Virus record (IMG/VR): IMGVR_UViG_3300030108_006236
Coordinates: 1-22,013 of that record
DNA length: 22,013 nt
Origin: a virus
Strand: one strand, 5' to 3'
Shown here in pieces: positions 46 to 20,489 of the stretch. Position numbers and translations under genes: made by a program. Below the pieces are notes generated by a model. The model was not told the origin of the DNA. It was given only the letters and a program-made list of their open reading frames with translations, and did not search any database. How positions within the stretch are numbered: the first letter of the stretch is position 1; the number at the start of each line of letters is the position of its first letter.

Positions 46-471
46 ATGCGAATCACCAACTCCACACTACGAAAAATAATCCGCGAAGAGCTGGAAGCAG
101 TTCAAAGCGAATCTAAGTTTGATGACCGCTTTAATGCCATCAGAAACGCCGTGGCAGACATCCTGAACGCCCTTGGCAAGCGTAGGGGGGACCTATCCAT
201 TGCTCAGCGCGAGGGGCTTCCCAAATTGGCTGCTATGGTTGTTGACGGCGATATGACCGTCAAGTCCGCCGCGAAAAAATTGGGCGCTTCCATTCGGGAG
301 GCAGTCGAAAACGAGACGCTCTTCAACCTTGTCAAGGATGCCGGCATTCCCATGGCAGGCGTGGACCGCAATGACTTCTTTAACTTTCTGCGCGCGCGGG
401 AGCTGACCACGGCTGACGCCATTGAGTCACACATGGGTGTGATCGCCGGTTGGCTCAAGAAAAATCGTTAA
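46..471 (+). CDS. Tagged putative virion protein, unknown function
   Basis: This 141-residue protein has no fold I recognise. Residues 1-20, MRITNSTLRKIIREELEAVQ, are a clear copy of the N-terminal tag shared by at least nine other proteins in the window. The rest is predicted to be mostly helical and mixed in charge, with no membrane segment and no Cys. The ATG lies one base after the upstream stop. By analogy with T4 internal head proteins, whose N-terminal capsid-targeting peptides are removed by the prohead protease, I infer that it is virion cargo or a core protein. The antisense frame inside it is a shadow. Confidence 0.8.
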   Translation: MRITNSTLRKIIREELEAVQSESKFDDRFNAIRNAVADILNALGKRRGDLSIAQREGLPKLAAMVVDGDMTVKSAAKKLGASIREAVENETLFNLVKDAGIPMAGVDRNDFFNFLRARELTTADAIESHMGVIAGWLKKNR

Positions 472-490
472 AATTTTCAGCGATTCGGTG

Positions 491-500
491 ACTATATAAT
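491..500 (+). promoter_or_regulatory. Promoter-like -10 element
   Basis: ACTATATAAT sits in the short gap between two genes, 34 bases before the ATG at 525. It resembles the ACTATTTATA element found 31-32 bases upstream of three other starts (824, 6257, 14266). A strong GGAGG-type ribosome-binding site (about 507-516) lies between it and the ATG. I see no clear -35 element, so a phage-modified polymerase or late-type promoter is possible. Confidence 0.4.
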
Positions 501-524
501 ATCATAGGAGGGGGGGACCTAACT

Positions 525-809
525 ATGGAATCAATAATTGAAGGCTTAGCCCAATACGGTCCACTCGGTTTGTGGACCGCTTCGCTTTTATGGATGAACT
601 GGCAGCAGCGCAAGGAAAACAAGGAAGACGAGCTTCGCTCGGCTGAAGCCCTGAAGTATCATCAGGAGAATATCGCCGGCAAACTCGATGAGTTGGGCGC
701 CAAATTGGAACTCACAGGACAGAAGATAGACACCGGTTTAACGACCATGAGGGAGAAATACTCAGAGGACCGCGCATTGATGAGAGATTTGCTCAGAAAT
801 CGCGGCTAA
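525..809 (+). CDS. Small membrane protein with coiled-coil tail, holin-like
   Basis: This 94-residue protein has one N-terminal hydrophobic segment (about residues 7-26, LAQYGPLGLWTASLLWMNW). A highly charged helical tail follows (residues 28-94), rich in Lys/Glu heptads. One membrane helix plus a cytoplasmic coiled coil is the layout of the BhlA/UviB group of small phage holin-like proteins, but I see no diagnostic motif. It lacks the tag of its neighbours and has its own promoter-like element and a very strong G-rich ribosome-binding site, so it is probably expressed apart from the virion cargo. Alternative: a membrane anchor or spanin-like helper. A role in lysis is inference only. Confidence 0.72.
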   Translation: MESIIEGLAQYGPLGLWTASLLWMNWQQRKENKEDELRSAEALKYHQENIAGKLDELGAKLELTGQKIDTGLTTMREKYSEDRALMRDLLRNRG

Positions 810-812
810 GAG

Positions 813-843
813 CCTTCTAGGGTACTATTTATAGAGAAGAAGG
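813..843 (+). promoter_or_regulatory. Inverted repeat enclosing promoter-like element and RBS
   Basis: CCTTCT (813-818) can pair with AGAAGG (838-843). The loop contains ACTATTTATA (824-833). The 3' arm overlaps the AAGGAG ribosome-binding site of the gene at 856. Two other start regions (5207-5227 and 10187-10208) also put a TATA-type sequence in the loop and the ribosome-binding site in the 3' arm. This one is weaker (6 bp stem, 19-base loop). Confidence 0.35.
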
Positions 844-855
844 AGATTTCCCCCA

Positions 856-1329
856 ATGAAAATCACACAGGCTACACTTAAGGCGATCATCCAAGAAGAG
901 GTCGCGAAAATGTTCGAAGGCAAGCACGAAGGTGCTCGCGTTGCAAAGGCAGATGAGCGCCGCGCTGGAATGCAGGCTGGCGAAGTCGAAGCCGAGGATG
1001 TTGACGAGGGCATCTTTGCTCCCAACCACTATTGCGTGCACCACGGTGGTGTGCAGCACGAGGGCGAGATCAAGCTCGCTGAGGCTGTTGGGCACAATTG
1101 GAGCGAGAAGCTTGGTCGTGTAACCCACTACGACATGAAGCTCGCAAATGGCACGATTCTTGAGAATGTTGCGTTTGAAGACATTCAAGTCACCAACGCT
1201 TCACTTGCTGAGGGTCACCACGCACACGTTCCCTCCAAGGGTAAGCGCGATCGTGAAGAGCATGACCTCGATGATCTTTATGCAATGGTTCGAGACCTTA
1301 AGCATAAAGTCGACGATATGCGCAAGTAG
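856..1329 (+). CDS. Tagged His-rich putative virion protein
   Basis: This 157-residue protein starts with the tag MKITQATLKAIIQEEVAKMF, followed by E (M-F-E, a possible processing site). A charged linker (21-54) leads to a compact domain at about residues 54-120 with PNHYCVHHGGVQHEGEIK, then HNW, THYDMKL and EGHHAH. The spacing of His and its single Cys suggests possible metal binding, but no known site is evident. The C-terminus (129-157) is a charged helix. I have a general memory of this PNHYCVHHGG domain from marine phage hypothetical proteins, with no assigned function. The RBS is AAGGAG at about 840-845. An ACTATTTATA element precedes it by the same distance as at 6288 and 14298. Confidence 0.82.
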   Translation: MKITQATLKAIIQEEVAKMFEGKHEGARVAKADERRAGMQAGEVEAEDVDEGIFAPNHYCVHHGGVQHEGEIKLAEAVGHNWSEKLGRVTHYDMKLANGTILENVAFEDIQVTNASLAEGHHAHVPSKGKRDREEHDLDDLYAMVRDLKHKVDDMRK

Positions 1330-1357
1330 ATAAAAAAAATTTGGCAAAGAGTTTATA

Positions 1358-1795
1358 ATGAAGCAAGAAGATCTTAAGAAAATAATCGCCGAAGAACTGC
1401 AAGCTATGCGGTCCTCAACTCCGGTTGTGGAGGAGCAGGAGGTTCTCGAAGAGGTTCTGGGAATAGGGGCAATATTAGGTAAGCTTTTTCTAGTCTTGAC
1501 ACAACGCGAAAACATACGTAAGGTTATTCGGGCTCTCATGAGTCGCAAGGAAGATCTCCCCGAGGGGCTTCTAGAGATTTTGGAAAAAATCGAGGAGCTT
1601 TTAGACCTTGTTGAGACCAACCTGCCTAATATAATTAAAAGAATAACCGATGTAAGAGCATCGAGCCCAAGAAACAGGGTTGTTGCTCTTTTGGTAAATG
1701 TTTTTTCTGATTTTATTAAACAAGGAGAGCCAGATGAGCCTCACCCCAACTTTGAACAAGGGGAGGGTGAGTATTCACCACCAAACAGAAATTAA
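1358..1795 (+). CDS. Tagged putative virion protein, unknown function
   Basis: This 145-residue protein begins MKQEDLKKIIAEELQAMR, a shorter form of the tag that lacks the I-T dipeptide; the gene at 2590 starts almost identically. The middle (residues 25-100) is amphipathic and helical (VLGIGAILGKLFLVLTQRENIRKV and onward), with a hydrophobic stretch at about 28-45 that could associate with a membrane. The last 20 residues are polar and disordered (EPHPNFEQGEGEYSPPNRN). No catalytic motif is visible. It lies in the same polycistronic array as its neighbours. Virion location is inferred from the tag. Confidence 0.78.
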   Translation: MKQEDLKKIIAEELQAMRSSTPVVEEQEVLEEVLGIGAILGKLFLVLTQRENIRKVIRALMSRKEDLPEGLLEILEKIEELLDLVETNLPNIIKRITDVRASSPRNRVVALLVNVFSDFIKQGEPDEPHPNFEQGEGEYSPPNRN

Positions 1796-1808
1796 GGACT
1801 TTTAAATC

Positions 1809-2579
1809 ATGATTATCACCAATTCACAACTTAGAAAAGTTATCAACGAGGAACTTCAAATTGTCCTCGTGGAGCAACGAATGGAGCTGTGGGAGCAACG
1901 CACGACTCGCGAGCTAGATAAGCTCCTTAGCGAGATAGACCTCAAGGGAGTTGCCTCTGCTGCATTGGAGAAGATTAACAATTTTGTTCACACAGCCGGT
2001 GTAAAAGCTTGGCAATTTATGCAAAAGGGCAAAGAGGCGGCAATGAAGGGTATTAAGTTTCTTTCTGGAATCCTTCAGAAAATTCAGTCTTTTTGTGCAA
2101 AGAGACCAAGAGTGTGTGGCGCCGCAAAAGTATTTTTAACAGTTATGATCATGGCTGGCGTTGTGGTGGCGACAGCTGGTGCTGCTCAGGCAGCAGAAGG
2201 TGGTTTCGTGGACCCAGCCGTGTTAGACCAGATTATCGGCGGTGCAAAGGTAGCAATGGATCCACTAGCACAAAATCCGGGAGGCGCTGGTGGTTTTGTT
2301 AGTTATCATGAGCAAATTGACGAATATGTGCGCGTCTTGAATGAATTGAGAAATATACCTGTGGATGCGCAAGCAAGGGATCTCTCTAAGGGCGCCCAGA
2401 AAGTTCTTTCTATTGGTCTTGAGACCTTGAACGCCACCGACGAGATCGTCGGCGGTTCAGGCGTAGACCTCTTGCAAAAATTCGGCGCTAATGCCAACAG
2501 GGCGGCACAGGAGGCGCTTGACGCCGTCATGGAAGCCGCCGTCAGCGGCAATATGCCTTTAGGCACAGGACCAAAATAA
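1809..2579 (+). CDS. Tagged protein with central transmembrane segment
   Basis: This 256-residue protein opens with MIITNSQLRKVINEELQIVL then V-E, giving the tripeptide L-V-E right after the tag. Residues 25-95 are amphipathic helices. Residues 104-129 are strongly hydrophobic and Ala/Gly-rich (VFLTVMIMAGVVVATAGAAQAA) and would span a membrane or insert during genome delivery. The C-terminal half (130-256) is soluble and helical. An internal membrane segment in a protein carrying a capsid-type tag suggests ejection into the cell envelope, but that is inference. The nearest alternative is a structural protein of the baseplate or neck. Confidence 0.8.
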   Translation: MIITNSQLRKVINEELQIVLVEQRMELWEQRTTRELDKLLSEIDLKGVASAALEKINNFVHTAGVKAWQFMQKGKEAAMKGIKFLSGILQKIQSFCAKRPRVCGAAKVFLTVMIMAGVVVATAGAAQAAEGGFVDPAVLDQIIGGAKVAMDPLAQNPGGAGGFVSYHEQIDEYVRVLNELRNIPVDAQARDLSKGAQKVLSIGLETLNATDEIVGGSGVDLLQKFGANANRAAQEALDAVMEAAVSGNMPLGTGPK

Positions 2580-2589
2580 GGAGTTTATA

Positions 2590-3132
2590 ATGAAACAAGA
2601 AGATTTAAAAAGAATGATTATGGAAGAGCTTGGCAAAATTCGCGAGGCAAGAGGTTTTACTGGTCTTGAGGTCTCTGCGCTTAATGATGGCGGCGACGAG
2701 GTCGTTCGCATGACTTGGGCGCGTGAGCCTGCAGCTGAGGTCGCTGAGCAGACGCTTCTTGCTCAACTTGAGCTGCCCACTGTTAAGCGGCTCATGGTTC
2801 ACAAGGGCGAAGAGTGGATTGAAGCCAATCTTCCTGCGCTTGCTGGTGATGCAAGGGTTGACTATCCCGAAGATGAGCCACGATTTAGCCCCGAGCAAGA
2901 AGAGCAGGACGCACGACTAGCGAACCCTGATCTTTATAGAGACGACGACATGCTCCAAGAGGGTTTTCCCGGCGCGGAATTGGTGACACAGTTTATAAGC
3001 TTTATCCAAAGCAACCCAGAGGTGGCAGTTGCAGCTATTACTGCTAATGCTGCTTCATTGGCAGTTGTGGAGGTGCTGGAAAGTATCACCGATAAGGTTC
3101 GTGCCGCTCTCGCAGCGAAAGAAGCTAGATAA
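2590..3132 (+). CDS. Tagged putative virion protein
   Basis: This 180-residue protein has the tag MKQEDLKRMIMEELGKIR then E (I-R-E tripeptide). The tag is almost the same as that at 1358, so the two genes may share a recent origin for this part. Residues 20-115 are mixed alpha/beta. A short acidic linker follows, then a hydrophobic, Ala-rich C-terminal helix pair at about 126-176 (NPEVAVAAITANAASLAVVE). AGGAG with a TTTATA spacer precedes the ATG. The stop codon is one base before the next ATG, so the genes are coupled. Confidence 0.8.
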   Translation: MKQEDLKRMIMEELGKIREARGFTGLEVSALNDGGDEVVRMTWAREPAAEVAEQTLLAQLELPTVKRLMVHKGEEWIEANLPALAGDARVDYPEDEPRFSPEQEEQDARLANPDLYRDDDMLQEGFPGAELVTQFISFIQSNPEVAVAAITANAASLAVVEVLESITDKVRAALAAKEAR

Positions 3133-3133
3133 A

Positions 3134-3754
3134 ATGAACTTATCTCAACTTAAAAAGCTAATTAAAGAGGAACTAGAAGTTATCCTAACCAACGAAGAGG
3201 TTGGTGATTTTTTCGGTGAAGACGTTCAACGTCAAATCGAGGAGGCTGGGTTCTTTCCTGATTCTGCTAAGGAAGAGGAAGCTGAGGCTGCCGATCTATC
3301 AGCACAAGCGGGTAGTGTGAACGTCGAGCCAATGGAAGAGGCGGGACACAAGGGTGAGGGCACAATGGCTCGCTCCCAGCTCGCGCGCACTGGTGAGATT
3401 TCCCATATGCTTGAAAAGATGATTGGTGATGATACCAATCTTCCAGAGTGGGTTGAGTCAAAGATTACAAAGGCACAAGATTATCTTTCCAGTGTTCTCA
3501 ACTATATGCGTGGTGAAGATCTGGTTGACGCTGGTGATGCTGCCCGCGAGATGAAGGCTGCGGCTGCTGTTATGAACCGTGGTCCCCTTCAAGAGGCGGA
3601 CGAGGCAGAAATGATTGAGAAGCTAGAGGATGCAATTGAAAACGCAAAAGAACTCGTTAATAATCTCCCAGATAACCAAAGAGGTGAGGCGGAGAAGGTG
3701 CTCAACAGACTTGAGACGCGCTATAATCACATTATGAAAGGTAAAGTCAAGTGA
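3134..3754 (+). CDS. Tagged protein with conserved 'MARSQL' phage domain
   Basis: The open frame extends upstream to 3029, but the ATG at 3134 is the right start. It lies one base after the previous stop and begins with the tag MNLSQLKKLIKEELEVIL. The product has 206 residues. After an acidic linker comes GHKGEGTMARSQLARTGEI and then ADYLSS-like helices (WVESKITKAQDYLSSVLNYM). I remember this module as recurring in marine phage putative structural proteins; its role is unknown to me. The C-terminal 60 residues form another acidic helix pair. It is probably a head-core or virion component, based on the tag and neighbours. Confidence 0.82.
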   Translation: MNLSQLKKLIKEELEVILTNEEVGDFFGEDVQRQIEEAGFFPDSAKEEEAEAADLSAQAGSVNVEPMEEAGHKGEGTMARSQLARTGEISHMLEKMIGDDTNLPEWVESKITKAQDYLSSVLNYMRGEDLVDAGDAAREMKAAAAVMNRGPLQEADEAEMIEKLEDAIENAKELVNNLPDNQRGEAEKVLNRLETRYNHIMKGKVK

Positions 3755-4062
3755 AAATCACAACAGACAGAATCAAAGAAATTATTCGCGAAGAGCTTTC
3801 TCGCGTGAACGAAGCAATGTCTAGACAGGCAGCCGAGGATGGTGCCGATATGTACAACAGCGAGCACTATGGTCTCAGCTACCGTCAGCTAGTTCAGATG
3901 ATTATGAAACACGGTCACATTGATGCTGCTTATCCTACCTATCTTGAGTTTCGTGATGGACACGAGCACTATCGTGGCGACTACGTAGAGGACTCTGAGG
4001 ATGTGGACTTTGATATTGATCGTCGACGCATGAACAAGCCAATGATGGAAGAAGAGAGATGA
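3751..4062 (+). CDS. Small tagged putative virion protein
   Basis: This 103-residue protein starts at a GTG that overlaps the previous stop (GTGA), typical of translational coupling. The tag is MKITTDRIKEIIREELSRVN, followed by E. The rest is acidic with a Tyr/His-rich centre (EHYGLSYRQLVQMIMKHGHI and HEHYRGDYVED). No known domain is recognised. The gene ends by overlapping the next start (ATGA). It is unlikely to be an enzyme given its size; a small cargo or decoration role is possible. Confidence 0.78.
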   Translation: MKITTDRIKEIIREELSRVNEAMSRQAAEDGADMYNSEHYGLSYRQLVQMIMKHGHIDAAYPTYLEFRDGHEHYRGDYVEDSEDVDFDIDRRRMNKPMMEEER

Positions 4063-4475
4063 ATCTCAACAATCTAAGGCAGCTTGTTCAGGAGGAGATG
4101 TCTCGTTTTGAGTTTATGAAACACCTTGCTGGAAAGCGTCCTGATTTAAACGCCAAGCAAATCGGTGAAATTTACAAACTATACAAGGGTGGCATGGATA
4201 TTGATTCTGCTGTTGCTAAAGTTGCCCCAATGCAAGAGCAAGAGCGTCTTGGTATGGCATCCGTCTCTAGATCTGACCAAGCTATGATGGCACGACAAAA
4301 AGGAAAAGACATCGCGAGTGGCGATGCTCTTTCTGGGGTTACTACTCGCGAGCGTGCCATTATGGTTGATCTTGAAAAAATAATTGCTGCGATAGCTGAA
4401 GAGGATGATCTTGTAAAGTATAAAGTAGACCTGCAAAATGTAGTTGATCGATTGCGCAAAAAAGCTGGAGTTTAA
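4059..4475 (+). CDS. Tagged putative virion protein with GVTTRERA motif
   Basis: This 138-residue protein begins with the tag variant MNLNNLRQLVQEEMSRFE. Residues 22-58 look like a small helical unit (RPDLNAKQIGEIYKLYKGG). The C-terminal part contains GDALSGVTTRERAIMVDLEK followed by helices. I recall a similar GVTTRERA segment in other marine phage hypothetical proteins but no function. The ATG overlaps the upstream stop by four bases. The next gene starts two bases after this stop, so the whole block from 3134 to 5185 should be one translation unit. Confidence 0.8.
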   Translation: MNLNNLRQLVQEEMSRFEFMKHLAGKRPDLNAKQIGEIYKLYKGGMDIDSAVAKVAPMQEQERLGMASVSRSDQAMMARQKGKDIASGDALSGVTTRERAIMVDLEKIIAAIAEEDDLVKYKVDLQNVVDRLRKKAGV

Positions 4476-5234: not shown

Positions 5235-6257
5235 ATGAGATATATCTGTAGCTTAGCGTTTTTGTTATTACTTGTTGCAGGGTGCACAGGTTATAATATT
5301 GTTCCTTTGGACGATGACGACTCCCCAATAGACGATCCTGACGATCCGCCTGTTGACGATCCGGACTGGCGACCGACTGTTACATTCATTGACATTCCTG
5401 TGGGCGATGACGACGATGCAACACCGCCACCTCCCGAGATCCCTGATCCAAGATTTTATATTTTAACAAAGGCTGGCTTTCGTGGAGCAGATGAAAGCAC
5501 CCTAGAGCAAATTGATGAAGAGGGTAATGTGCTGGATATGATCGGGGTGGGCTTTCCCAGTTCCACTGTAACAGCGTTGCCTGGAGAATATAATTTTATT
5601 GTTATGAATAATGACGGTAGTCGTGATGTCCCAAGAGAACGAGATCTTAATCTCGTTGATGGTTTTCTAGACACGGTCACACCAACTGGCTTGACAATCA
5701 ACGGTAACGGTAGAATTCACTTCGCCCGAAACGCAAACCTTCTTGTAGGCGCGGTAGAACATTATGTTTATTTTAGAAATCTTGATGACGGCACAGCTTG
5801 GGTGAGAATGGGCAGCCATGATACTCAATGCTGGATTGACGCTACCAGTAGTCCTGTGCCTGGTGATGATAGAGTCTTTTTGCTTGAGCAATCTGAACGA
5901 GCTATTCACATTTACAATCCACTTACAGAGGAAATAATGGATGCTCCTTATGTTTCTGGTCTTCCTGATTCTACAGTCTTGGGTATGGACGAGGAGGGCA
6001 ATTTCTATACCGGTTCTGATTCTCCTGTTATATCAATCGTTCCAGCAGTTGATCGTATACCAATCTATTTGTCTATTCCCGAAATACATAGAACTATTGC
6101 TCTTGAGCCCGCAGGCAGCAACTCAATTTGGCTTCTTTATCTTAAAAATGAGGAGTCAAAAGCAGGAACAGTTCTGGAGAGAATTTGGTCTGACGGAACT
6201 CGTGAAGCAATCTTCGATGTTGTCGACGCTCCGTGGAGCGATTTCATTGTAATGTAA
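5235..6257 (+). CDS. Secreted Asp-rich lipoprotein with possible beta-propeller domain
   Basis: This 340-residue protein has a classic lipoprotein signal peptide: M-R, hydrophobic core (residues 3-14), and lipobox V14-A-G-C17. Thr follows the Cys, so sorting to the outer membrane is expected in a Gram-negative cell. Residues 25-70 are a low-complexity Asp/Pro linker (DDDDSPIDDPDDPP, later GDDDDATPPPP). I associate this style with cell-surface lipoproteins of some deltaproteobacterial lineages. Residues 75-340 are beta-rich with repeating aromatic/Gly units, which may form a propeller or other beta fold. It carries no virion tag. A role in altering the infected cell surface, such as superinfection exclusion, is possible but unproven. 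Confidence 0.82.
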   Translation: MRYICSLAFLLLLVAGCTGYNIVPLDDDDSPIDDPDDPPVDDPDWRPTVTFIDIPVGDDDDATPPPPEIPDPRFYILTKAGFRGADESTLEQIDEEGNVLDMIGVGFPSSTVTALPGEYNFIVMNNDGSRDVPRERDLNLVDGFLDTVTPTGLTINGNGRIHFARNANLLVGAVEHYVYFRNLDDGTAWVRMGSHDTQCWIDATSSPVPGDDRVFLLEQSERAIHIYNPLTEEIMDAPYVSGLPDSTVLGMDEEGNFYTGSDSPVISIVPAVDRIPIYLSIPEIHRTIALEPAGSNSIWLLYLKNEESKAGTVLERIWSDGTREAIFDVVDAPWSDFIVM

Positions 6258-6287: not shown

Positions 6288-7016
6288 ATGAAAATCACCC
6301 AATCACAACTTAGACGGATTATCAAGGAAGAGCTTGAGGCAGTCCTGAGTGAAAAAGCAGAGAAAACGGTTAGTGCTGAGATCTCCGCTCAAAAGAAGAA
6401 GGGCAAGCCACAGGATCAAGCAGTAGCAATTGCTTTGTCTAAAAAAGAGCGTGGTGAAGTTCGTGCAGACGAGGCGATGAACGAAGAAGAGCTTGATGAG
6501 CGCTGTCAAAAAGGCTACAAAACTCACGAAAAACGCAAAACTAAAACAATGTATGGCAAAACATACAGGAACTGCGTTAAAGCAGAAGAATTAGAGTTAG
6601 ACGAGAAGAAAAAGAAGAAAAAGGACGATCGCTGTACTCGTATTGCCAAGCGTAAGTATGATGTCTGGCCATCTGCCTATGCTTCAGGAGCTGTCGTGCA
6701 GTGCCGCCGGGGTAAGATCTGGAAGGGTGTGAAGGAGGGTGCCGAGGAGGACCTAGCGGTAGCAATCAGGCAAGCGCTTCACGACGAAGGTGGTGCTGCG
6801 GGGATGGATGCACTTATTGACAAGGTTGGTGCATCGCAGAAAGAGATTGAAGATGCTATAGGCGATATGCACGACGTTGGACACTCCCACTATGGTGATT
6901 ACATTCTTGACGATGCAGATATGGTTGACATCGTGAAAGAAAAAAAAAACGTTGGAGCAAGTCAGAAAGAAGTAAGAGAGCGAAGAATTGCGCGAATCCT
7001 AAAGGATTTACTATGA
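6288..7016 (+). CDS. Tagged basic phage protein with DUF5872-like Cys segment
   Basis: This 242-residue protein carries the most canonical tag, MKITQSQLRRIIKEELEAVL then S-E (L-S-E). Several modules follow. Residues 24-58 resemble small Lys-rich segments (KKKGKPQDQAVAIALSKKE). Residues 73-97 read CQKGYKTHEKRKTKTMYGKT and end in NC. Residues 115-146 read C-T-R-I-A-K-R-K-Y-D-V-W-P-S-A-Y-A-S-G-A, a sequence I remember from phage proteins grouped as DUF5872. Residues 155-215 look like a small winged-helix-like domain. GASQKE occurs twice (residues 181-186 and 223-228), a small internal repeat. It is probably a nucleic-acid-associated head protein. Confidence 0.82.
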   Translation: MKITQSQLRRIIKEELEAVLSEKAEKTVSAEISAQKKKGKPQDQAVAIALSKKERGEVRADEAMNEEELDERCQKGYKTHEKRKTKTMYGKTYRNCVKAEELELDEKKKKKKDDRCTRIAKRKYDVWPSAYASGAVVQCRRGKIWKGVKEGAEEDLAVAIRQALHDEGGAAGMDALIDKVGASQKEIEDAIGDMHDVGHSHYGDYILDDADMVDIVKEKKNVGASQKEVRERRIARILKDLL

Positions 7017-7075
7017 AGCAGTTCTGCAAGAACCAGCGCACAAGAAGCAAAAAGGGTGAAAGGGCAAATGAGTAA
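7013..7075 (+). CDS. Possible 20-codon coupled leader ORF
   Basis: An ATG overlapping the previous stop (ATGA) opens a 20-codon frame, MKQFCKNQRTRSKKGERANE, that ends across the ATG at 7068 of the next gene (ATGAGTAA). It is basic and could be a real small peptide, a translational relay between its neighbours, or the relic of a frameshift joining two genes. Nothing besides the start/stop overlaps supports it. Confidence 0.25.
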   Translation: MKQFCKNQRTRSKKGERANE

Positions 7076-8159
7076 AGATCCCAAAACAGGCACAGGAAAA
7101 AAGCCCAAAGGTTCTGGTCGCAGACTATATACTGATGAGAATCCAAAGGACACCGTTGGTGTGGAATTCTCAAGTGCCGCAGCAGTTAGGAGAACCTTAG
7201 CAAAAGCATCTTTTAAATCTAAGTCACATAAGAGACAATCACAGATTATTAATCTTATTCACCAGCGCGCAAGGGCTGCGTATCAAAACGCAAAAGACCC
7301 AGCGGTGAAGAAGAGGCTAAAGGGCGCCCTTGATTATGCCGAGGAAAGAAAAGAGGCTTCGAAGAGGAAAACAAAAAGAATGCAGAAAGCTAAGAACGAA
7401 TCTTTGACCACCGCACAAACTCTTCAGCAAATTGTTTTAGAGGAAATTGAAGCAGTTCTCGATGAGGATCTTCGTAAGTGGTTTAAGCGCAAAGGAGCCC
7501 CTGGCAAAAAGGGTGGTTGGGTCGATTGTAACGCGCCAAAATACAAAGACGGAAAGAAAGTTGGATACAAAGCCTGTGGGCGCTCAAAAGGTGAGAAGAG
7601 ATCTAAGTATCCTGCCTGTCGCCCCACAGCTGCAGCCTGTAAGTCTAAAGGTAAGGGTAAGAAGTGGGGTAAAAAAGCTGCAAAAAAATCTAAGAGAAAG
7701 AGGAAGGCTAACGAGAATATGAACCTTGATCAGATTATTTTTGAGACAACAAGAGAGTTTGTTTTTCGAGAGATTGTGCAACCTCACCTTACCGAGGCGT
7801 TTTTGGAGGACGGAACCCCTGTCTGTGTCGCTTGTTTGAGCGAGCAGCTCTTCGAGGCAACTTGTGATTGCCCTCACTTAGTGTACGAAGCCGAGTATCA
7901 GGGGCGCAAAGTGAAGCTTAATAAGCCTATGAGAGGCGATGTTAAGAAGTTTAAGGTCTATGTTAAGGACCCGAAGACAGGAAACATTAAGAAAGTTAAC
8001 TTTGGTCATGGCGGAACTAGCGCAAAGAAAAAGGGTGAGAAGACAATGAAGATTCGCAAGTCAAACCCAAAGGCGCGCAAGTCATTTAGGGCTCGTCACA
8101 ATTGCGATAACCCAGGTCCAAAGACGAAGGCACGCTACTGGTCGTGCAAGAAATGGTAA
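7056..8159 (+). CDS. Multi-module basic phage protein with internal tag (possible polyprotein)
   Basis: This is a 367-residue, very Lys/Arg-rich protein. The frame opens at GTG 7056; ATG at 7068 (residue 5, MSKDPK) is equally likely. Modules in order: residues 20-110, a helical basic unit (GRRLYTDENPKDTVGV and onward); residues 117-136, LTTAQTLQQIVLEEIEAVLD, an internal copy of the tag followed by L-D-E; residues 139-196, KWF then WVDCN, YKACG and YPACRPTAAAC, a DUF5872-like Cys unit; residues 222-250, NMNLDQIIFE and HLTEAF, a weaker tag-like segment with L-T-E; residues 256-275, two CxxC-like pairs; residues 295-367, KVYVKDPKTGNIKKVNFG ending RARHNC, GPKTKARYWSCKKW. I recall several of these modules as separate phage proteins, so this may be a fusion processed in the head. 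Confidence 0.8.
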   Translation: MKGQMSKDPKTGTGKKPKGSGRRLYTDENPKDTVGVEFSSAAAVRRTLAKASFKSKSHKRQSQIINLIHQRARAAYQNAKDPAVKKRLKGALDYAEERKEASKRKTKRMQKAKNESLTTAQTLQQIVLEEIEAVLDEDLRKWFKRKGAPGKKGGWVDCNAPKYKDGKKVGYKACGRSKGEKRSKYPACRPTAAACKSKGKGKKWGKKAAKKSKRKRKANENMNLDQIIFETTREFVFREIVQPHLTEAFLEDGTPVCVACLSEQLFEATCDCPHLVYEAEYQGRKVKLNKPMRGDVKKFKVYVKDPKTGNIKKVNFGHGGTSAKKKGEKTMKIRKSNPKARKSFRARHNCDNPGPKTKARYWSCKKW

Positions 8160-8162
8160 ATT

Positions 8163-8615
8163 ATGAAAATATTGCTCGAAAACTGGAGAAAGTTTCTCAC
8201 AGAGGTTAAAAACCTCATCTGCCCTCCAGCCACACAAGATTTAGAACTCAACACTCGCAATCGCAATAATGCTATTAAAGCAGATTATATACAATATGGT
8301 CCCCTTAATCTTGAAGATGAGGGTTATTGGGATCGAGCAGCGGAACATTGGAATACAACACCTGATGTTGCAAAGAAATCACGCTGCGCTAACTGCATTG
8401 CCTTTGATATTTCACCCAGAATGCTTGATTGTTTGCCTGGTCCAGTGTCTCAACCCATTGAGGACGCTGAAGGGTATCTTGGATACTGCTGGATGCACCA
8501 CTTTAAGTGCCACAGTGCACGTGCCTGCTACACTTGGGCAGCAGGTGGACCCATCGATGACGACAAGACATCGGCAGAGTGGCAAGAAAAGTCCGGAAAT
8601 TTTGAAAAAGAATGA
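8163..8615 (+). CDS. HiPIP-like Cys-rich protein with ENWR-type tag
   Basis: This 150-residue protein begins MKILLENWRKFLTE, the same tag class as at 4478, with L-T-E at its end. The C-terminal half has C75-x2-C78 (RCANCIAFD), C90, GYC109, FKC116 and C122 in SARACYTWAAGGP. CxxC, then a spaced Cys, then G-Y/W-C recalls the four-Cys cluster of high-potential iron-sulfur proteins, which are small electron carriers. Loop lengths differ from classic HiPIPs, and there are two extra Cys, so another metal site is possible. The next gene, a cytochrome c, overlaps its stop by four bases, which supports a redox role. No export signal is seen. Confidence 0.72.
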   Translation: MKILLENWRKFLTEVKNLICPPATQDLELNTRNRNNAIKADYIQYGPLNLEDEGYWDRAAEHWNTTPDVAKKSRCANCIAFDISPRMLDCLPGPVSQPIEDAEGYLGYCWMHHFKCHSARACYTWAAGGPIDDDKTSAEWQEKSGNFEKE

Positions 8616-8932
8616 AATATTTTGCCCTAACCGCAATAATTGGCGGTCTTGTTGCCGCTGATAGCGATTTTAATTTCTCTTTTATGACCGCAAGGACCGG
8701 TCCAGAGGTGTATGAGGCGTTTTGCCAAAGCTGCCACGGGGAAAATGGGCGTGGAGCAGGACCAGAGACCAATCTTTATGCTAATCGTCGACGCCTCCGC
8801 ACTGCTGACGGTGATCTTATAACAAGTATTCTGGATGGCAAGGGTGAAATGCCGGGATATTCCAATATTTTGACCTATGACGAGGCTCAAAATGTTTTAA
8901 ATTACATCCGAGAGGACCTAAAGCGTCGATAA
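8612..8932 (+). CDS. Small monohaem c-type cytochrome
   Basis: This 106-residue protein has a canonical haem c attachment site C38-Q-S-C41-H42, preceded by VYEAF and followed by GENGRGAGP. The distal Met ligand is likely Met80 in GKGEMPGYSNILTYDEAQNV, and the C-terminal helix NVLNYIREDLK is typical of class I cytochromes (cytochrome c6/c551 type). The N-terminus (KYFALTAIIGGLVAA) can serve as a short export signal or membrane anchor, needed because haem is attached outside the cytoplasm. The ATG overlaps the upstream stop (ATGA). It would depend on the host's cytochrome c maturation system. A cytochrome gene in a phage is very unusual. Confidence 0.85.
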   Translation: MKYFALTAIIGGLVAADSDFNFSFMTARTGPEVYEAFCQSCHGENGRGAGPETNLYANRRRLRTADGDLITSILDGKGEMPGYSNILTYDEAQNVLNYIREDLKRR

Positions 8933-8933
8933 A

Positions 8934-9203
8934 ATGAGAATTTTAAGACTTTTTACTGATCATCCGCGTGAAGTTGGCGAAACTTATCTCTCGCATGCCT
9001 TATCTGCTTCTAAGATTGCCTTGAAATTTGCCATTGCAGCGCCCATGCAACTTTTGCACGCCGTTTTTCCATTTATTCAACCCCCTTTTGGGTCAGATAC
9101 CACTTCAATGAAGGCTTTTTTACGAAAAATGAGCCCAAAAAGACGAAAAAAGCAGTCTAAACCCTGTTGCGGCGGACAACAGTGTCAAAATAGCGCTTCA
9201 TAA
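8934..9203 (+). CDS. DUF6356-like small membrane-associated protein
   Basis: This 89-residue protein has FTDHPREVGETYLSHA at residues 7-22, the HP-x-x-VGETY-x-x-H signature I remember from the bacterial family DUF6356. A hydrophobic segment follows (residues 28-48, ALKFAIAAPMQLLHAVFPFI). The tail is basic and ends with CC and QC (KPCCGGQQCQNSAS), which could bind metal. The function of the family is unknown to me. The gene starts one base after the cytochrome stop, so it belongs to the same redox-like unit. Its 3' end overlaps the convergent J-domain gene by 47 bases. Confidence 0.68.
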   Translation: MRILRLFTDHPREVGETYLSHALSASKIALKFAIAAPMQLLHAVFPFIQPPFGSDTTSMKAFLRKMSPKRRKKQSKPCCGGQQCQNSAS

Positions 9204-9798
9204 GCTCTTTTCGAGGCATTTCATCCTCCAGATCATACCACATCCATGCCGCAGTCTTTTGAATGCCCTTTATTTTGCTTTTTATGCGTCTTGCCTCTTC
9301 TTTCATCAACTTTAGGTCATTTGGTGTTGGATCCGGCAGATCTAAGCCCATTCGACGAGCAATTTGTTGTAATTTGAAGTAATTCGACTCTTCTGCAGCC
9401 TCTTTTGCTTGCAAAAACACCTGTTTATTAACAATTTGAACCTCTTTATTGGCATTTGTGAACTTATCGGGGTGTGTTTTTGTAGCAATTTGCTTAAAAA
9501 GTTTGCTAATTTGCTCCGGTTTGCCCTTTTTTTCAAGCTGTTTTACGTCTTCATCAACGTTCACTCCGTCCTCATCATGGAAGCTAATCGCGTCTGGATC
9601 GGACGATTTTATATCTTTTACGTCCTCTTTTATGATATCTGTCTCGTAATTTATGTTTTGAGAGGCACAATACGCTAAAAATGCCCTCTGAAACTCTCTT
9701 CGAGCGTCATCTTGGACGTCTTCGTGGTATTCTAGGTCCTCATACAGGAATTCTAGCTCCAAAAGGAGCCTTTTATATTTTGCTTGTAGTCTTTTCAC
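9157..9798 (-). CDS. J-domain (DnaJ-like) protein
   Basis: The only convincing minus-strand gene in the window, 213 residues, with a GTG start. Residues 1-50 are a charged coiled coil. Residues 96-150 form a J-domain-like hairpin: ISKLFKQIATKTHPDK carries the H109-P-D motif, followed by FLQAKEAAEESNYFKLQQIA. J-domains stimulate the ATPase of Hsp70 (DnaK), so the phage protein may redirect host chaperones to virion assembly or replication. The C-terminus (165-213) is helical and basic. A TATAAT on the minus strand (in 9799-9850) is divergent from the promoter for 9851. Its 3' end overlaps the DUF6356-like gene, so antisense effects on that gene are possible. Confidence 0.8.
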   Translation of the reverse strand: MKRLQAKYKRLLLELEFLYEDLEYHEDVQDDARREFQRAFLAYCASQNINYETDIIKEDVKDIKSSDPDAISFHDEDGVNVDEDVKQLEKKGKPEQISKLFKQIATKTHPDKFTNANKEVQIVNKQVFLQAKEAAEESNYFKLQQIARRMGLDLPDPTPNDLKLMKEEARRIKSKIKGIQKTAAWMWYDLEDEMPRKELMKRYFDTVVRRNRV

Positions 9799-9850: not shown

Positions 9851-10165
9851 ATGAAGTTTACACAAGAAACGCTACGTCAGCTTATTTCTGAAGAGATTGA
9901 AAATTATCTAAATGAGATGAGCGATGAAGATGACCCAATGAGAGCACTTTATCCTCGTGAGAAAGTAATGGCAAACTTGGCTAAACTAGAAGCATACATT
10001 AAAGACCTTGAGGACCAACTACAGAAGCGTGGAATTGACCCTGATGGTCCAACTGTTGGTCCGACCGGAACTCAAATTGTGGAGCCTCTTGCCACTACAC
10101 CAGTGGGTGAAAAACCCAGACGCTCCAGTGTGGCAGCTACAAGACTCCTAGATCCCAGAAATTAA
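9851..10165 (+). CDS. Small tagged putative virion protein
   Basis: This 104-residue protein has the tag MKFTQETLRQLISEEIENYL then N-E (L-N-E tripeptide). Residues 33-60 are a coiled-coil-like helix (MANLAKLEAYIKDLEDQLQK). The tail is Pro/Thr/Gly-rich and flexible (DPDGPTVGPTGTQIVEPLA). No known domain is seen. It is separated from the first tagged block by the redox cassette and the reverse-strand gene, which shows that tagged genes are not confined to one operon. Confidence 0.8.
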   Translation: MKFTQETLRQLISEEIENYLNEMSDEDDPMRALYPREKVMANLAKLEAYIKDLEDQLQKRGIDPDGPTVGPTGTQIVEPLATTPVGEKPRRSSVAATRLLDPRN

Positions 10166-12205: not shown

Positions 12206-14266
12206 ATGGGCGGTGTTGCTGGACACTTAATGCACCTGTATGATAATAGAGATTTATCTTACAATGATATAGCGGATATCTTATCCAAAGCCTCGCGAGG
12301 AGAACTTGAAGGTACTGAAAAAACGGATGGGTTTAACATCTATCTTGGATTCAAGGATGGCGAGGCTCGCGCTGCTCGCAATAAAGGAGATATGCGCAGG
12401 GGTGGCATGAATGCTGCTGCTGTCGCTGCGCGCAATTATAAAGGCGGACCACAAGTCCGCCAAATTTATGTTGACTCTTTTCGCGCTTTCGAAAAAGCAA
12501 TGTTGTCTTTGAGCGAAGAGGAGCGCGCGAAGTTATTTGGTCCGGACGGGGAAATATTTTATAATACAGAAATTCTCGGGATGCTTCAGCCCATAGAGCC
12601 GGAGGATGAGCCGCGCCCTGCCAATGTGATCAAATATGACCCGAGCATGATCACCATTCACCCAGCTGGTCATAAGCGATACAATCCTGAAACTAACTCG
12701 CTAGAAGTTGTTGACGTATCGCAAAACGCAAAAGTTTTAGATGCTGCGGTCGATAGATTCACAGAAGCACTAGCCGGCGAGGATTTTCAGCTAGCGAGGA
12801 CTGCTGTTGCGCAGCTTAATAAACTTGATAATGATCATGATCTTAACATTGCCTTGTCTCGTATTCAAAAGTCTGGTCTAACTGGCGATATGACCATCAA
12901 TGATCTTTTAACCGATAGAGTTTCGCAAGTTGTTAATGAAAGATTTTCTGTTCTTTCGGAAGAAAAGCGTCAGGCGATTGTAGCCCGAGTTCTTAAGCTT
13001 GAAGGGCACCCAAGTCTTGTCGCTATCAAAAAAGGGTTGCCAAAAGATATTGCAAATGAAGTATCAAAGTTTATAAAAGAAGACAGTATAATCCCAATTC
13101 GAAAAGTTATTGCTCCTATTGAGGATGCAATCCACGATCTAGCAGTAGAGTTGCTTAGCGGTCTTCAGAGCGCTTACATTCTTGATAACAAAGCAGAAGT
13201 TGAAAGATTGCGAAAAGAAGTTGCAACGGCGATTGTCAAAATTAAAAAGTATGTTGGGAAAGGATCAGACAAAGCCCACGAGATGCTTTATCGCCAACTT
13301 CTAAAGCTCAAACATCATGATAAGATTGATACTGCAGTCGAGGGATTCGTATTTCAGCACGATGGTAATCTTTATAAGTTTACAGGAAATTTTGCGCCGA
13401 TCAACCATCTCCTAGGCTTGTTCAAATACGGTAGAGGCTCCGTGCCGCCTATTAGAGCGCCAGGGGAGGGTGAACTTAATGAGCAAGCCGGAATGGTTCC
13501 CTCGCGGGTCTTAGCGGTCGTTCCTGGGGCGTTTAAGCCACCTCACCGTGGTCACGTTGCAATGGTAGCAGAATATGCCGGTGAGGCTGATGAGGTTATT
13601 GTCCTGGTAAGTCCCGTTGAGCGTGAGGGGATTACTGCTGATCAGTCTGTTGCGCTATGGAATATATATCTTGAAGAGCTGCCCTATGATAATATCAAGG
13701 TGATGAAGTCCCCTGTCAACTCACCAGTTCTAGCTGCCTATCAATTTGTTGAAAACCCGGATGATAATCCGCTTTGGGCTCAGCCCGGCGATGAGGTAAT
13801 TATGGGCGTTAGCACCAAGGGCGGAGATGAGGAGAGGTTCTGCAAAAACGTTCAGAAGTATGCCCGTGAAGGCGTCTTGATTCGCGCTAATTGCGCCATC
13901 GACCCTGCTGGAGGATCTTTTACAAACCAAGAAACGGGCGAACCATTTAGCGCTACAAATATGCGCCGTGCGATCGCAAATAGAAATAAAGAATTAATTT
14001 CTTTTATCCCGCCCGAGGCACACGATCGCATGGATGATATAGAGGATATTTTAGCAATGAAGCAGAACGAGAGAAAAGAGCCGATTACTTTGGAAAATTT
14101 GTTTGACATGGTTGAGGAGGTTATGGAGGAAGAGGAAGAGCCTGTAGAAGAGATCTCATCTATGGCAGGCGGTTCAGTGGCGGGATACTCGCTGCCATTA
14201 GGGGCAAAACCCCGAAAAATTAACAAAAAGAAACGCAAGGGAAGACGAATATACATTCCGGACTAA
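12206..14266 (+). CDS. Fusion of ligase-like nucleotidyltransferase and HxGH nucleotidylyltransferase
   Basis: This is the largest protein in the window, 686 residues. N-terminal part: EKTDGFNIYLGFKDG carries K39-T-D-G42, motif I of the covalent ligase/nucleotidyltransferase superfamily. EIFYNTEIL (about 117-125) fits motif III. EGFVF at 379-383 fits motif IV, and LYKFTG with K391 fits motif V. C-terminal part: VVPGAFKPPHRGHVAM has H447-R-G-H450, the HxGH signature of adenylyl/cytidylyltransferases, and SATNMRRA (582-589) fits the downstream S-x-T-x-x-R motif. I recall related phage proteins as DUF6267. The acidic, Lys-rich tail (640-686) is disordered. It may seal or modify RNA/DNA ends or handle NAD-type cofactors. 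Confidence 0.78.
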   Translation: MGGVAGHLMHLYDNRDLSYNDIADILSKASRGELEGTEKTDGFNIYLGFKDGEARAARNKGDMRRGGMNAAAVAARNYKGGPQVRQIYVDSFRAFEKAMLSLSEEERAKLFGPDGEIFYNTEILGMLQPIEPEDEPRPANVIKYDPSMITIHPAGHKRYNPETNSLEVVDVSQNAKVLDAAVDRFTEALAGEDFQLARTAVAQLNKLDNDHDLNIALSRIQKSGLTGDMTINDLLTDRVSQVVNERFSVLSEEKRQAIVARVLKLEGHPSLVAIKKGLPKDIANEVSKFIKEDSIIPIRKVIAPIEDAIHDLAVELLSGLQSAYILDNKAEVERLRKEVATAIVKIKKYVGKGSDKAHEMLYRQLLKLKHHDKIDTAVEGFVFQHDGNLYKFTGNFAPINHLLGLFKYGRGSVPPIRAPGEGELNEQAGMVPSRVLAVVPGAFKPPHRGHVAMVAEYAGEADEVIVLVSPVEREGITADQSVALWNIYLEELPYDNIKVMKSPVNSPVLAAYQFVENPDDNPLWAQPGDEVIMGVSTKGGDEERFCKNVQKYAREGVLIRANCAIDPAGGSFTNQETGEPFSATNMRRAIANRNKELISFIPPEAHDRMDDIEDILAMKQNERKEPITLENLFDMVEEVMEEEEEPVEEISSMAGGSVAGYSLPLGAKPRKINKKKRKGRRIYIPD

Positions 14267-16506: not shown

Positions 16507-16582
16507 GGGGCAGTAACTCAGCGGTAAGAGTAGTGTTCTTATAAAGCACCGGTCGCGGGTTCAAATCCCGCCTGCCCAACCA
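16507..16582 (+). tRNA. tRNA-Ile (UAU)
   Basis: A 76-base cloverleaf with encoded CCA: D-arm ACTC/GAGT, anticodon stem GTGTT/AGCAC with loop CTTATAA (anticodon UAU), T-arm GCGGG/CCCGC with loop TTCAAAT. The acceptor stem has G1 opposite A72; the other six pairs are fine. UAU reads the rare codon AUA directly, unlike the usual lysidine-modified CAU tRNA. Confidence 0.85.
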
Positions 16583-16590
16583 ACAAGATA

Positions 16591-16749
16591 ATGTGGTTTA
16601 AAATAACAGCCGATTACGGTAATATAGAACGTCTACAGTTTTGGCTCTGGGCTGAAAGCAGAGATGCCCTGGATGAGCTTGTAGCAAAGAAAAAAAATAT
16701 TAAAAAAATTTATAGTGTAGAAGATGGGCTGACGCCCTCATTCCTATAA
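16591..16749 (+). CDS. 52-residue phage protein between tRNAs
   Basis: ATG 16591 opens a 52-codon frame lying exactly between two tRNA genes: MWFKITADYGNIERLQFWLW, then AESRDALDELVAKK and IYSVEDGLTPSFL. A beta-alpha-beta-like order and a sensible composition suggest a real small protein. The gap before the next tRNA is three bases. No ribosome-binding site stronger than AACAAGAT is seen, so the expression level is doubtful. Function unknown. Confidence 0.5.
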   Translation: MWFKITADYGNIERLQFWLWAESRDALDELVAKKKNIKKIYSVEDGLTPSFL

Positions 16750-16752
16750 TAG

Positions 16753-16829
16753 GCACCCTTAGCTCAGTTGGATAGAGCAACGGTCTTCTAAACCGTAGGT
16801 CACTGGTTCGAGCCCAGTAGGGTGTGCCA
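16753..16829 (+). tRNA. tRNA-Arg (UCU)
   Basis: A 77-base cloverleaf with CCA: acceptor GCACCCT/AGGGTGT (G-U at the end), D-arm GCTC/GAGC, anticodon stem ACGGT/ACCGT with loop CTTCTAA (anticodon UCU), T-arm ACTGG/CCAGT. It reads AGA/AGG, codons favoured in A/T-rich phage genes. Confidence 0.93.
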
Positions 16830-16844
16830 TTTTAAAAGCAGAGG

Positions 16845-16858
16845 ACTAGTTAATAATG
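16845..16858 (+). promoter_or_regulatory. ACTAGTTAATAATG repeated promoter-like motif
   Basis: Second copy of the 14-base motif, identical to the one at 18862. It ends with the first ATG of the clpP gene. If it acts as a -10 element, the message would begin close to or within the first codons. Confidence 0.45.
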
Positions 16859-17458
16859 ATGCAACACGAAGATCTCCAATGGGAGAGTAAGGCAGGCGAC
16901 GAAGCCGCCGGAAGTTCAGATAACAACAAAGTTCAAATCGGAAGAAACAGAATATACTTTTATTCTGAAGTCACTCGTGCCAAGAACTTAGAGTTAAACA
17001 AGAACCTTGTCACGATGAGCAACACACTCTACAACAGAGGGCAATCGTTGCAAGTAGATCCAGGCAGGGTCTTTCTTCACATTAATTCTTTTGGTGGTAG
17101 TGTTTTTGCTGGTATGTCATCAGTGGACTATATTCTTAACAGCAAGGTGCCCGTCACCACCGTTATTGATGGCTGTGCCGCTTCCGCCGCCACTATCATG
17201 AGCGTTGTCGGTCACCACCGTGTTATGCACAAGCATGCCTTCATGCTTATTCATCAAATCTCTTCAGCAATGTGGGGAAAGTTTGAGGAAATGAAGGACG
17301 ATATGAAGAATAGTGAACTACTTATGGACACTATCATCAAGATATACGAAGAGCACACCCGCATTCCGAGAAGCGAACTAGAGAATATTCTTAAGCGCGA
17401 TATTTGGTGGGATGCAAAAACGTGTTTGGACTACGGATTGGTCGACGAAATCATTTAA
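16856..17458 (+). CDS. clpP: ClpP-type serine protease
   Basis: This 200-residue protein has all ClpP hallmarks: VFLHINSFGGSVFAGMSS (substrate strand), nucleophile S110 in DGCAASAATIMSV, H133 in FMLIHQ, and D182 in KRDIWWDAKTC, with the C-terminus LDYGLVDEII. Its length fits the family. The N-terminal 25 residues (HEDLQWESKAGDEAAG) are extra, acidic and possibly a cleaved leader. Cellular ClpP needs a ClpX/ClpA-type partner; phage copies may work with host unfoldases or as prohead proteases. It sits between tRNA genes, apart from any capsid gene visible here. Either the first or second ATG may be used, since a promoter-like motif overlaps the start. Confidence 0.92.
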   Translation: MMQHEDLQWESKAGDEAAGSSDNNKVQIGRNRIYFYSEVTRAKNLELNKNLVTMSNTLYNRGQSLQVDPGRVFLHINSFGGSVFAGMSSVDYILNSKVPVTTVIDGCAASAATIMSVVGHHRVMHKHAFMLIHQISSAMWGKFEEMKDDMKNSELLMDTIIKIYEEHTRIPRSELENILKRDIWWDAKTCLDYGLVDEII

Positions 17459-17743
17459 CAAAGCGAGTGAAATGTAATACAATTTAAAAGCTGGTATACC
17501 AACTAGCTTAGAAGCTATAAAGTCTCTGACCAACCCCCCTACCCCCTATTATTGGCAAGGCTTTTACTTCTACGCACAGGGAGGCATGGCGTAACAGATG
17601 TCTCTTTACATTATCAATATCAAAGGCGTGAGAACCTTGTGTAAGGGTTTCTATCTGATTCGATTTGATTTGTCATAATGTTCTTTCTCACCGCAGGGAG
17701 GCACGGGTTTATAGGTGCCTCACCACCCCACAAAATAAAATAA
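17459..17743 (+). other. 285-base non-coding stretch with hairpin and short repeat
   Basis: I see no convincing gene here. It holds a 10-base direct repeat CAGGGAGGCA (17577-17586 and 17694-17703), a perfect hairpin GAGGCAC/GTGCCTC (17698-17704 with 17715-17721), a palindrome GGTATACC near 17494, and two short frames (26 codons at 17598; about 20 at 17678) without good ribosome-binding sites. Its location right before a tRNA cluster allows a small RNA or processing signals, but none is recognised. Confidence 0.35.
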
Positions 17744-17829
17744 GCCGATGTGGTGGAATGGTAGACACGACGGATTCAAAATCCGTTGCCTGTAGGGGCG
17801 TGCGAGTTCGAGTCTCGCCATCGGTACCA
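17744..17829 (+). tRNA. tRNA-Leu (CAA)
   Basis: An 86-base class II tRNA with a long variable arm and encoded CCA: acceptor GCCGATG/CATCGGT, anticodon stem ACGGA/TCCGT with loop TTCAAAA (anticodon CAA, codon UUG), T-arm GCGAG/CTCGC. Confidence 0.93.
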
Positions 17830-17835
17830 AAATGA

Positions 17836-17911
17836 TCCGATATAGCTCAGTTGGTAGAGCAAGCGGCTGTTAACCGCTAGGTCGTAGGTTCGAGCCCTAC
17901 TGTCGGAGCCA
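17836..17911 (+). tRNA. tRNA-Asn (GUU)
   Basis: A 76-base cloverleaf with CCA: acceptor TCCGATA/TGTCGGA, D-arm GCTC/GAGC, anticodon stem AGCGG/CCGCT with loop CTGTTAA (anticodon GUU), T-arm GTAGG/CCTAC. It lies six bases after the Leu tRNA, so the two are probably processed from one transcript. Confidence 0.93.
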
Positions 17912-17930
17912 ATAACACAAAGGGGAAAAA

Positions 17931-18404
17931 ATGTCACTAGTAGAAAAGCTAAAGAAGACCGGTCTAACCGCCGAAGAGGAAGTCACTCTCATTTATGAGG
18001 CTGGACTGGATGTTATTCATTATACGGATAATTATTATGATGATGTGATTGAAGATACTACGGTTGCATCTAGCCTCGCTAATCTAGCCACAAACATTCC
18101 GACGAGCCACACTCGCTGGAGCAAGACGCCAATCATTGAAACGATGAGGGAAGATGGCTACTTTGAGGGCTATGAAGAGGAAGAGATCACTACAGATCTG
18201 ATTAAGAACATCATCAGTGAGTTTTGGAATGAGTGTGATTGGCTCAGCTTCTCAACGGAGAAGTATGATCATAAGCGCGGGTATGCCACTTGCATTGCAG
18301 AGGTCCAGGTGCCCTACAAGGATGTTGTGGAGGCTGAGGACTGGATGCTAACCGGCTGGAAGGCGTTAATCACCACCGACCTAGGAACACTAGAAATTAA
18401 GTAA
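17931..18404 (+). CDS. Phage protein of unknown function
   Basis: This 157-residue acidic protein lies between the Asn and Thr tRNA genes, with an AAAGGGGAAAAA ribosome-binding site. It begins MSLVEKLKKTGLTAEEEVTL and has many Asp/Glu and Trp/Tyr residues (IHYTDNYYDDVIED, SEFWNECDWLSF). No membrane segment or enzymatic motif is seen. Acidity and aromatics would suit a DNA mimic or a host-protein inhibitor, but this is speculation. The intact frame in a tight tRNA cluster supports it being real. Confidence 0.7.
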   Translation: MSLVEKLKKTGLTAEEEVTLIYEAGLDVIHYTDNYYDDVIEDTTVASSLANLATNIPTSHTRWSKTPIIETMREDGYFEGYEEEEITTDLIKNIISEFWNECDWLSFSTEKYDHKRGYATCIAEVQVPYKDVVEAEDWMLTGWKALITTDLGTLEIK

Positions 18405-18410
18405 TGGAAC

Positions 18411-18487
18411 GCCTCCGTAGCTCAGTTGGCTAGAGCAGCTGATTTGTAATCAGCAGGTCGTCGGTTCGAGTCCGTCCGGAGGCTCCA
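18411..18487 (+). tRNA. tRNA-Thr (UGU)
   Basis: A 77-base cloverleaf with CCA: acceptor GCCTCCG/CGGAGGC, D-arm GCTC/GAGC, anticodon stem GCTGA/TCAGC with loop TTTGTAA (anticodon UGU, codon ACA). The variable loop and T-arm follow the normal pattern. Confidence 0.93.
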
Positions 18488-20199: not shown

Positions 20200-20489
20200 T
20201 GGAAGAGATAAAAAGCACCACAATAGATGAGTGGGATAACCCTGAGTTAAGAGAAGAGGTAGAAGGAGATAATGAGCTAAAACAGTGGCTTGTAGACTAC
20301 GTAGGTGAGAAGCACCAGCCAGAAAATGGCAATATAACAGTAGAGATGATCGTTCATACACTAGCAGAGGATTTTCCAGAATTTATGCTAGCTGTTGCGA
20401 GTGAAAACTTTCTGCGAGGATATCACCAGGCTCTTTGCGACGTAGATATGGCAAACAATGAAAATCAACATAACCAGAAGACATCTTGA
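20199..20489 (+). CDS. Acidic phage protein of unknown function
   Basis: This 96-residue protein overlaps the phoH stop by one base (TAATG) and is overlapped by the next gene by 32 bases. Core: NELKQWLVDYVGEKHQPENG, ITVEMIVHTLAEDFPEFMLA, SENFLRGYHQALCDVD. It is helical and acidic. I recall similar proteins in marine phages next to phoH or replication genes, with no function assigned. It is probably co-translated with phoH. Confidence 0.72.
   Translation: MEEIKSTTIDEWDNPELREEVEGDNELKQWLVDYVGEKHQPENGNITVEMIVHTLAEDFPEFMLAVASENFLRGYHQALCDVDMANNENQHNQKTS

Follow-up and report, generated by a model that had tools for sequence, protein, structure and literature searches.

Class I cytochromes c are exported unfolded by the Sec system, receive their haem from the cytochrome c maturation (Ccm) machinery outside the cytoplasm, and act as one-electron carriers, in many cases taking the electron from the bc1 complex and passing it to an oxidase. 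Those of the cbb3-subunit-III, c6 and c551 kinds (PF13442, PF00034) have in common a single domain of about 80 aa with a CxxCH motif and a distal Met, as well as an N-terminal export signal and a C-terminal helix. Cyanophages are known to encode carriers for photosynthetic electron flow, namely plastocyanin, ferredoxin and PTOX, and such small phage-supplied carriers are thought to keep electrons moving in the infected host. In the literature searched, the nearest precedent for a phage cytochrome is found in the viral SoxD and SoxCD auxiliary genes, which place a cytochrome c-family gene on phage contigs, and the two viral SoxD proteins reported there lack one cytochrome c motif or both (Kieft et al. 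2021, PMC8190135). In contrast, the cytochrome described here has both its CxxCH and its Met intact and conserved in two phages, and while the cyanophage carriers serve the photosynthetic chain, it would presumably serve a respiratory one.

The window analyzed in this work, meaning the whole stretch of DNA, is one entire IMG/VR record of 22,013 bases. Three abutting genes on its plus strand span positions 8163-9203 and code for a HiPIP-like phage protein of 150 aa (8163-8615), a predicted monohaem class I cytochrome c of 106 aa (8612-8932) and a DUF6356 protein of 89 aa (8934-9203). The ORFs of the first two share 4 bases (ATGA, 8612-8615) and a single base (8933) lies between the cytochrome and DUF6356 ORFs, so the tight coupling of three genes put forward in the original prediction is borne out by the ORF coordinates. 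Since N bases are absent from the whole window, the gene junctions at 8163-9203 are not scaffold joins. A DnaJ-like gene on the opposite strand (9157-9798), the only clear minus-strand gene of the window, overlaps DUF6356 at its end in a tail-to-tail arrangement.

The second gene matches both PF13442 (6.6e-12, 46 bits against a cut-off of 27) and PF00034 (3.7e-8, 35 bits against a cut-off of 21.3), and the third matches PF19883, the DUF6356 family (2.4e-15, 56.9 bits against a cut-off of 24.4), all of which is far beyond chance and agrees with what had been proposed for these two genes. The haem-attachment motif C38-Q-S-C41-H42 (8723-8737, plus strand) and the Met80-type distal ligand (8849-8851, plus strand), in the context G-K-G-E-M-P-G-Y, were both present as predicted, and this Met is invariant in the window, in L097 and L183, and in three plasmid-borne bacterial relatives. 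The N-terminus of the cytochrome, MKYFALTAIIGGLVAA (8612-8659, plus strand), resembles a Sec-type signal peptide, with a hydrophobic core at aa 4-15 (mean hydropathy of 2.29, and 2.27 in the orthologue described below) and a likely cleavage after Ala16, a site placed by the -3/-1 rule. The closest solved structures are the c domains of bc1 complexes and CcoP, followed by small carriers of the c552/c6 type. An AlphaFold2 model of the cytochrome was poor (pLDDT 51), having been built on three sequences.

Unlike known class I cytochromes, the one in the window is phage-encoded, and the nearest bacterial sequences found share 35-42% identity with it. A search for a bacterial donor that covered one genome scan as well as 385 genomes from a single class and 398 from a single phylum, part of it under strict E limits, gave distant relatives only, none of them above ~42% identity. 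None of the NCBIfam cytochrome subfamilies passes its own cut-off with this protein, and its redox partner is therefore unreadable from the sequence; we classify it from its motifs and profile matches as a class I monohaem cytochrome that fits no curated subfamily.

The rarity of cytochrome c in phages, on which much of the interest of this locus depends, was confirmed. A tblastn search of 50,697 phage records returned no homologues, with just two chance-level matches at E up to 10, and a generic bacterial cytochrome query had no match in those records either. PF13442 was absent from all 50 records in a first sample of records of relatives, and in a second sample of 50 it occurred solely in the record of contig L185, which had been included on purpose because its cytochrome was already known; overall, 99 of the 100 sampled records are without a PF13442 cytochrome. 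Scans of viral sequences with the cytochrome alone or with its bacterial relatives did not return the L185 orthologue, as its sequence departs from the short patterns that they used, and scans with a two-member alignment, the downstream gene or a DNA pattern returned no third member. These viral scans rely on short exact patterns and so are not exhaustive, and the collections may omit near copies of the window. The family stands at two known members, both on incomplete contigs. PHROG 16981, a family of unknown function, matches the window cytochrome weakly (6.7e-5), which indicates that cytochrome-like domains are not wholly new to phage-protein collections.

The second member was found by scanning with DUF6356 and lies on another viral contig in IMG/VR (L185, 17,416 bases) that is collinear with most of the right-hand 16 kb of the window; most window genes from 6288 to the end have a match there in the same order, with 33 to 87% identity. 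Its cytochrome (L183/L185) has 105 aa, is 73% identical to that of the window, carries CNSCH as haem motif and passes both Pfam cut-offs (50.6 bits for PF13442 and 33.5 bits for PF00034). It stands directly before DUF6356, with which it overlaps by 4 bases, and the same DnaJ-like gene follows on the opposite strand, again tail to tail with DUF6356. The two cytochrome genes differ at 0.60 of third codon positions and 0.22 of first and second positions, with a dN of 0.24 and a saturated dS, a pattern of purifying selection on a working protein. GC content of the cytochrome is 0.46 in a window that runs from 0.37 to 0.51, and 0.396 in L185 against 0.40 for that contig, so in both cases the gene resembles the surrounding genome and appears to be a long resident.

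These results also bear on whether the locus could be an assembly chimera or bacterial contamination, an objection that the original prediction had raised against itself and that is understandable given that cytochrome c is almost unheard of in phages. A collinear contig with this gene at the corresponding position, a window without N, a GC content that matches the phage and phage genes on both flanks leave this explanation with a negligible probability, and L185 excludes it for practical purposes. This is a genuine phage gene: a metabolic gene of host type on a bona fide virus, kept by selection in two collinear contigs, as is expected of an auxiliary gene.

The HiPIP-like neighbour has a very different distribution. 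At least 582 viral relatives were found, and a second, more distant set was reached through a lake phage. Across 65 distinct sequences from the first set, seven Cys as well as His112 and His117 never vary, and the seven Cys are also fully conserved when both sets are taken together, whereas in a HiPIP the four cluster Cys should be the sole invariant ones; the alignments disagree on which four of the seven would hold a cluster. The protein had no family match in Pfam, PHROG or NCBIfam, the HiPIP profile PF01355 did not match it and reached one of 57 relatives at E 0.13, and profile-profile comparison with HiPIP gave a probability of 21% that was carried by nine residues round CxNC. The name rests on motif and predicted fold. 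An AlphaFold2 model (pLDDT 80.9) had HiPIPs as its top three Foldseek matches in the PDB, all weak (best E 0.42), and 14 of the 15 rows listed by VIA-align were HiPIPs, also weak (best Z 5.0). The suggested HiPIP-type fold is thus plausible as a model, since the top structure matches are HiPIPs, but the unmatched profile, the seven Cys and the lack of a Tat signal count against its being a HiPIP proper. A HiPIP-like fold in a protein that is not a carrier has a parallel in the accessory subunits of glycyl radical enzymes (HPAD gamma, which binds two clusters, BSS beta and MASS beta; PMC12358834), which are non-phage proteins, and one chain of these gave a partial match to the first gene at Z 2.2.

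Relatives of the HiPIP-like protein point to the phage particle. In Actinomycetia phage DSL-LC01, a protein annotated as 'high potential iron-sulfur protein' (WJZ48512.1) is 43% identical to it and its gene adjoins those for capsid maturation proteases and the major capsid protein, and no cytochrome gene neighbours it. Predicted viral fold relatives at E below 1e-6 include proteins named portal, XkdF and prohead protease, these being the names given in the fold-match entries. In four related loci (L009, L020, L069 and L078) the HiPIP-like domain is fused in one ORF to KRKYDVWPSAYASGAVV and WVDCN...KYPSCRPT domains. In the window, genes of their own at 6288-8159 encode these domains, as they do the Lys-rich domains found fused to it in some relatives. 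We take it as an older, separate phage protein that is probably associated with the head or virion, and the name 'high potential iron-sulfur protein' given to so common a phage gene is no ground for inferring respiration.

The HiPIP-like protein starts with an ENWR-type tag, MKILLENWRKFLTE (8163-8204, plus strand), from which its packaging in the particle had been suggested. Such tags are reminiscent of the short sequences by which T4 internal proteins are targeted to the capsid (PMC3012670, PMC5694885), and a regular expression for the tag found 195 hits in related viral loci against a mean of 16 after shuffling, a count that includes the HiPIP-like homologues themselves. Packaging is a reasonable idea, but the tag is missing in several relatives, that of L185 among them. 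An ENWR-type tag also begins the gene at 4478, and at least 10 other genes (46-4475, 6288-7016 and 9851-10165) begin with a common helix-like tag of the MKIT..LR.IIREEL type. These shared N-termini are possibly capsid-targeting or packaging signals.

DUF6356 follows the cytochrome directly in both phages and codes for a protein with one hydrophobic stretch (aa 30-48) and a basic tail containing Cys. It is also present without a cytochrome in 15 of 50 relatives, and in eight cytochrome-free loci (L002, L005, L006, L007, L008, L015, L073 and L077, of which L007 and L008 are near copies) its start lies at, just before or just after the end of the HiPIP-like gene. Cytochrome-free phages thus often have DUF6356 directly behind the HiPIP-like gene, and this junction is therefore where insertion of the cytochrome probably took place. 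In L185 the order is HiPIP-like gene, another gene that is interrupted by a run of N (a scaffold gap), cytochrome and DUF6356. The simplest reading is that the common ancestor of both phages gained the cytochrome upstream of DUF6356 and that the contact between the HiPIP-like gene and the cytochrome in the window is incidental.

This arrangement matters for the proposal that the three genes form an electron-transfer cassette, in which the HiPIP-like protein would pass electrons to or from the cytochrome. Bacterial HiPIPs and small cytochromes c can replace each other as carriers, and the proposal gains from this, from how closely the three ORFs adjoin in the window and from fold matches that are weak but consistent. 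However, the HiPIP-like gene is found in hundreds of phages, and all but one of the 100 sampled records lack a PF13442 cytochrome. It is separated from the cytochrome in L185, has seven invariant Cys instead of four and has viral fold relatives named for portal, XkdF or prohead protease. Moreover, no Tat or other export signal was detected in the HiPIP-like protein, whereas a Tat signal was present in all eight bacterial HiPIPs fetched, and given the Sec-type signal of the cytochrome the two proteins are expected in different compartments. The cassette was not borne out, we regard it as highly unlikely, and the HiPIP-like protein probably stands functionally outside the cytochrome unit.

The explanation that we favor, if by a narrow measure of confidence, is that of an auxiliary cytochrome that is exported, loaded with haem by the host Ccm system and employed to supplement electron transfer from the bc1 complex to a terminal oxidase. 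The cytochrome would have entered a locus where the phage had its HiPIP-like and DUF6356 genes already, and would have been kept together with DUF6356, a possible helper at the membrane. During infection it would be made and exported by the host Sec system, after which the host cytochrome c maturation machinery would put haem on its CxxCH. In the periplasm it could then act as an additional one-electron carrier from the bc1 complex to the terminal oxidase, or between a similar donor and acceptor, and respiration and proton motive force would thereby last through infection. Other functions are conceivable for such a protein, such as scavenging of peroxide or NO, a haem sink, or competition with the host carrier in order to slow respiration. 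The sequence reaches no subfamily and does not separate a carrier from a sensor, scavenger or competitor, and phage metabolic genes elsewhere redirect a host pathway rather than support it, as in the divergent cyanophage PebA (quoted as an example in PMC8190135). Nevertheless, His/Met ligation in a single domain of carrier size is the usual anatomy of an electron carrier and the closest sequences are carrier domains, which makes these other functions unlikely. Less probable still is a membrane unit peculiar to the phage, in which DUF6356 would anchor the exported cytochrome or act as its partner, perhaps with a link to membrane potential and lysis timing. The adjacency of the two genes in both phages, their overlap in L185 and the hydrophobic stretch and basic tail of DUF6356 would suit this unit, but DUF6356 occurs without the cytochrome in phages and beside unrelated genes in bacteria. 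As for the auxiliary carrier, DUF6356 may be its membrane partner, and the fuller proposition, that this phage lineage keeps its own periplasmic cytochrome, haem-loaded by the host, and a DUF6356 membrane partner as a means of controlling respiration in the cell it infects, is advanced tentatively, at somewhat less than even chances.

Phage genes that aid photosynthetic electron flow are well known, which is not the case for an intact, conserved carrier for a probably respiratory chain. If functional, it would mean that phages intervene directly in the part of the chain that runs from the bc1 complex to the oxidase, as a respiratory counterpart of the cyanophage photosynthesis genes, and the cytochrome offers a small, easily expressed protein with which phage action on respiration can be tested.

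Elsewhere in the window, a ClpP-like protease is encoded at 16856-17458 (head maturation protease by its PHROG name), and a protein with HEIAH, a zincin-type metallopeptidase signature, at 20458-21159, where a weak Pfam match to ATLF, below the cut-off, probably reflects just the common protease fold. The gene at 12206-14266 codes for 686 aa, part of which resembles a nucleotidyltransferase (CTP_transf_like, narrowly below the Pfam cut-off), and for a putative lipoprotein of 340 aa (5235-6257, LLLVAGC) the loci fetched contain no relatives. Five tRNA genes, Ile-TAT, Arg-TCT, Leu-CAA, Asn-GTT and Thr-TGT, lie within 16507-18487.
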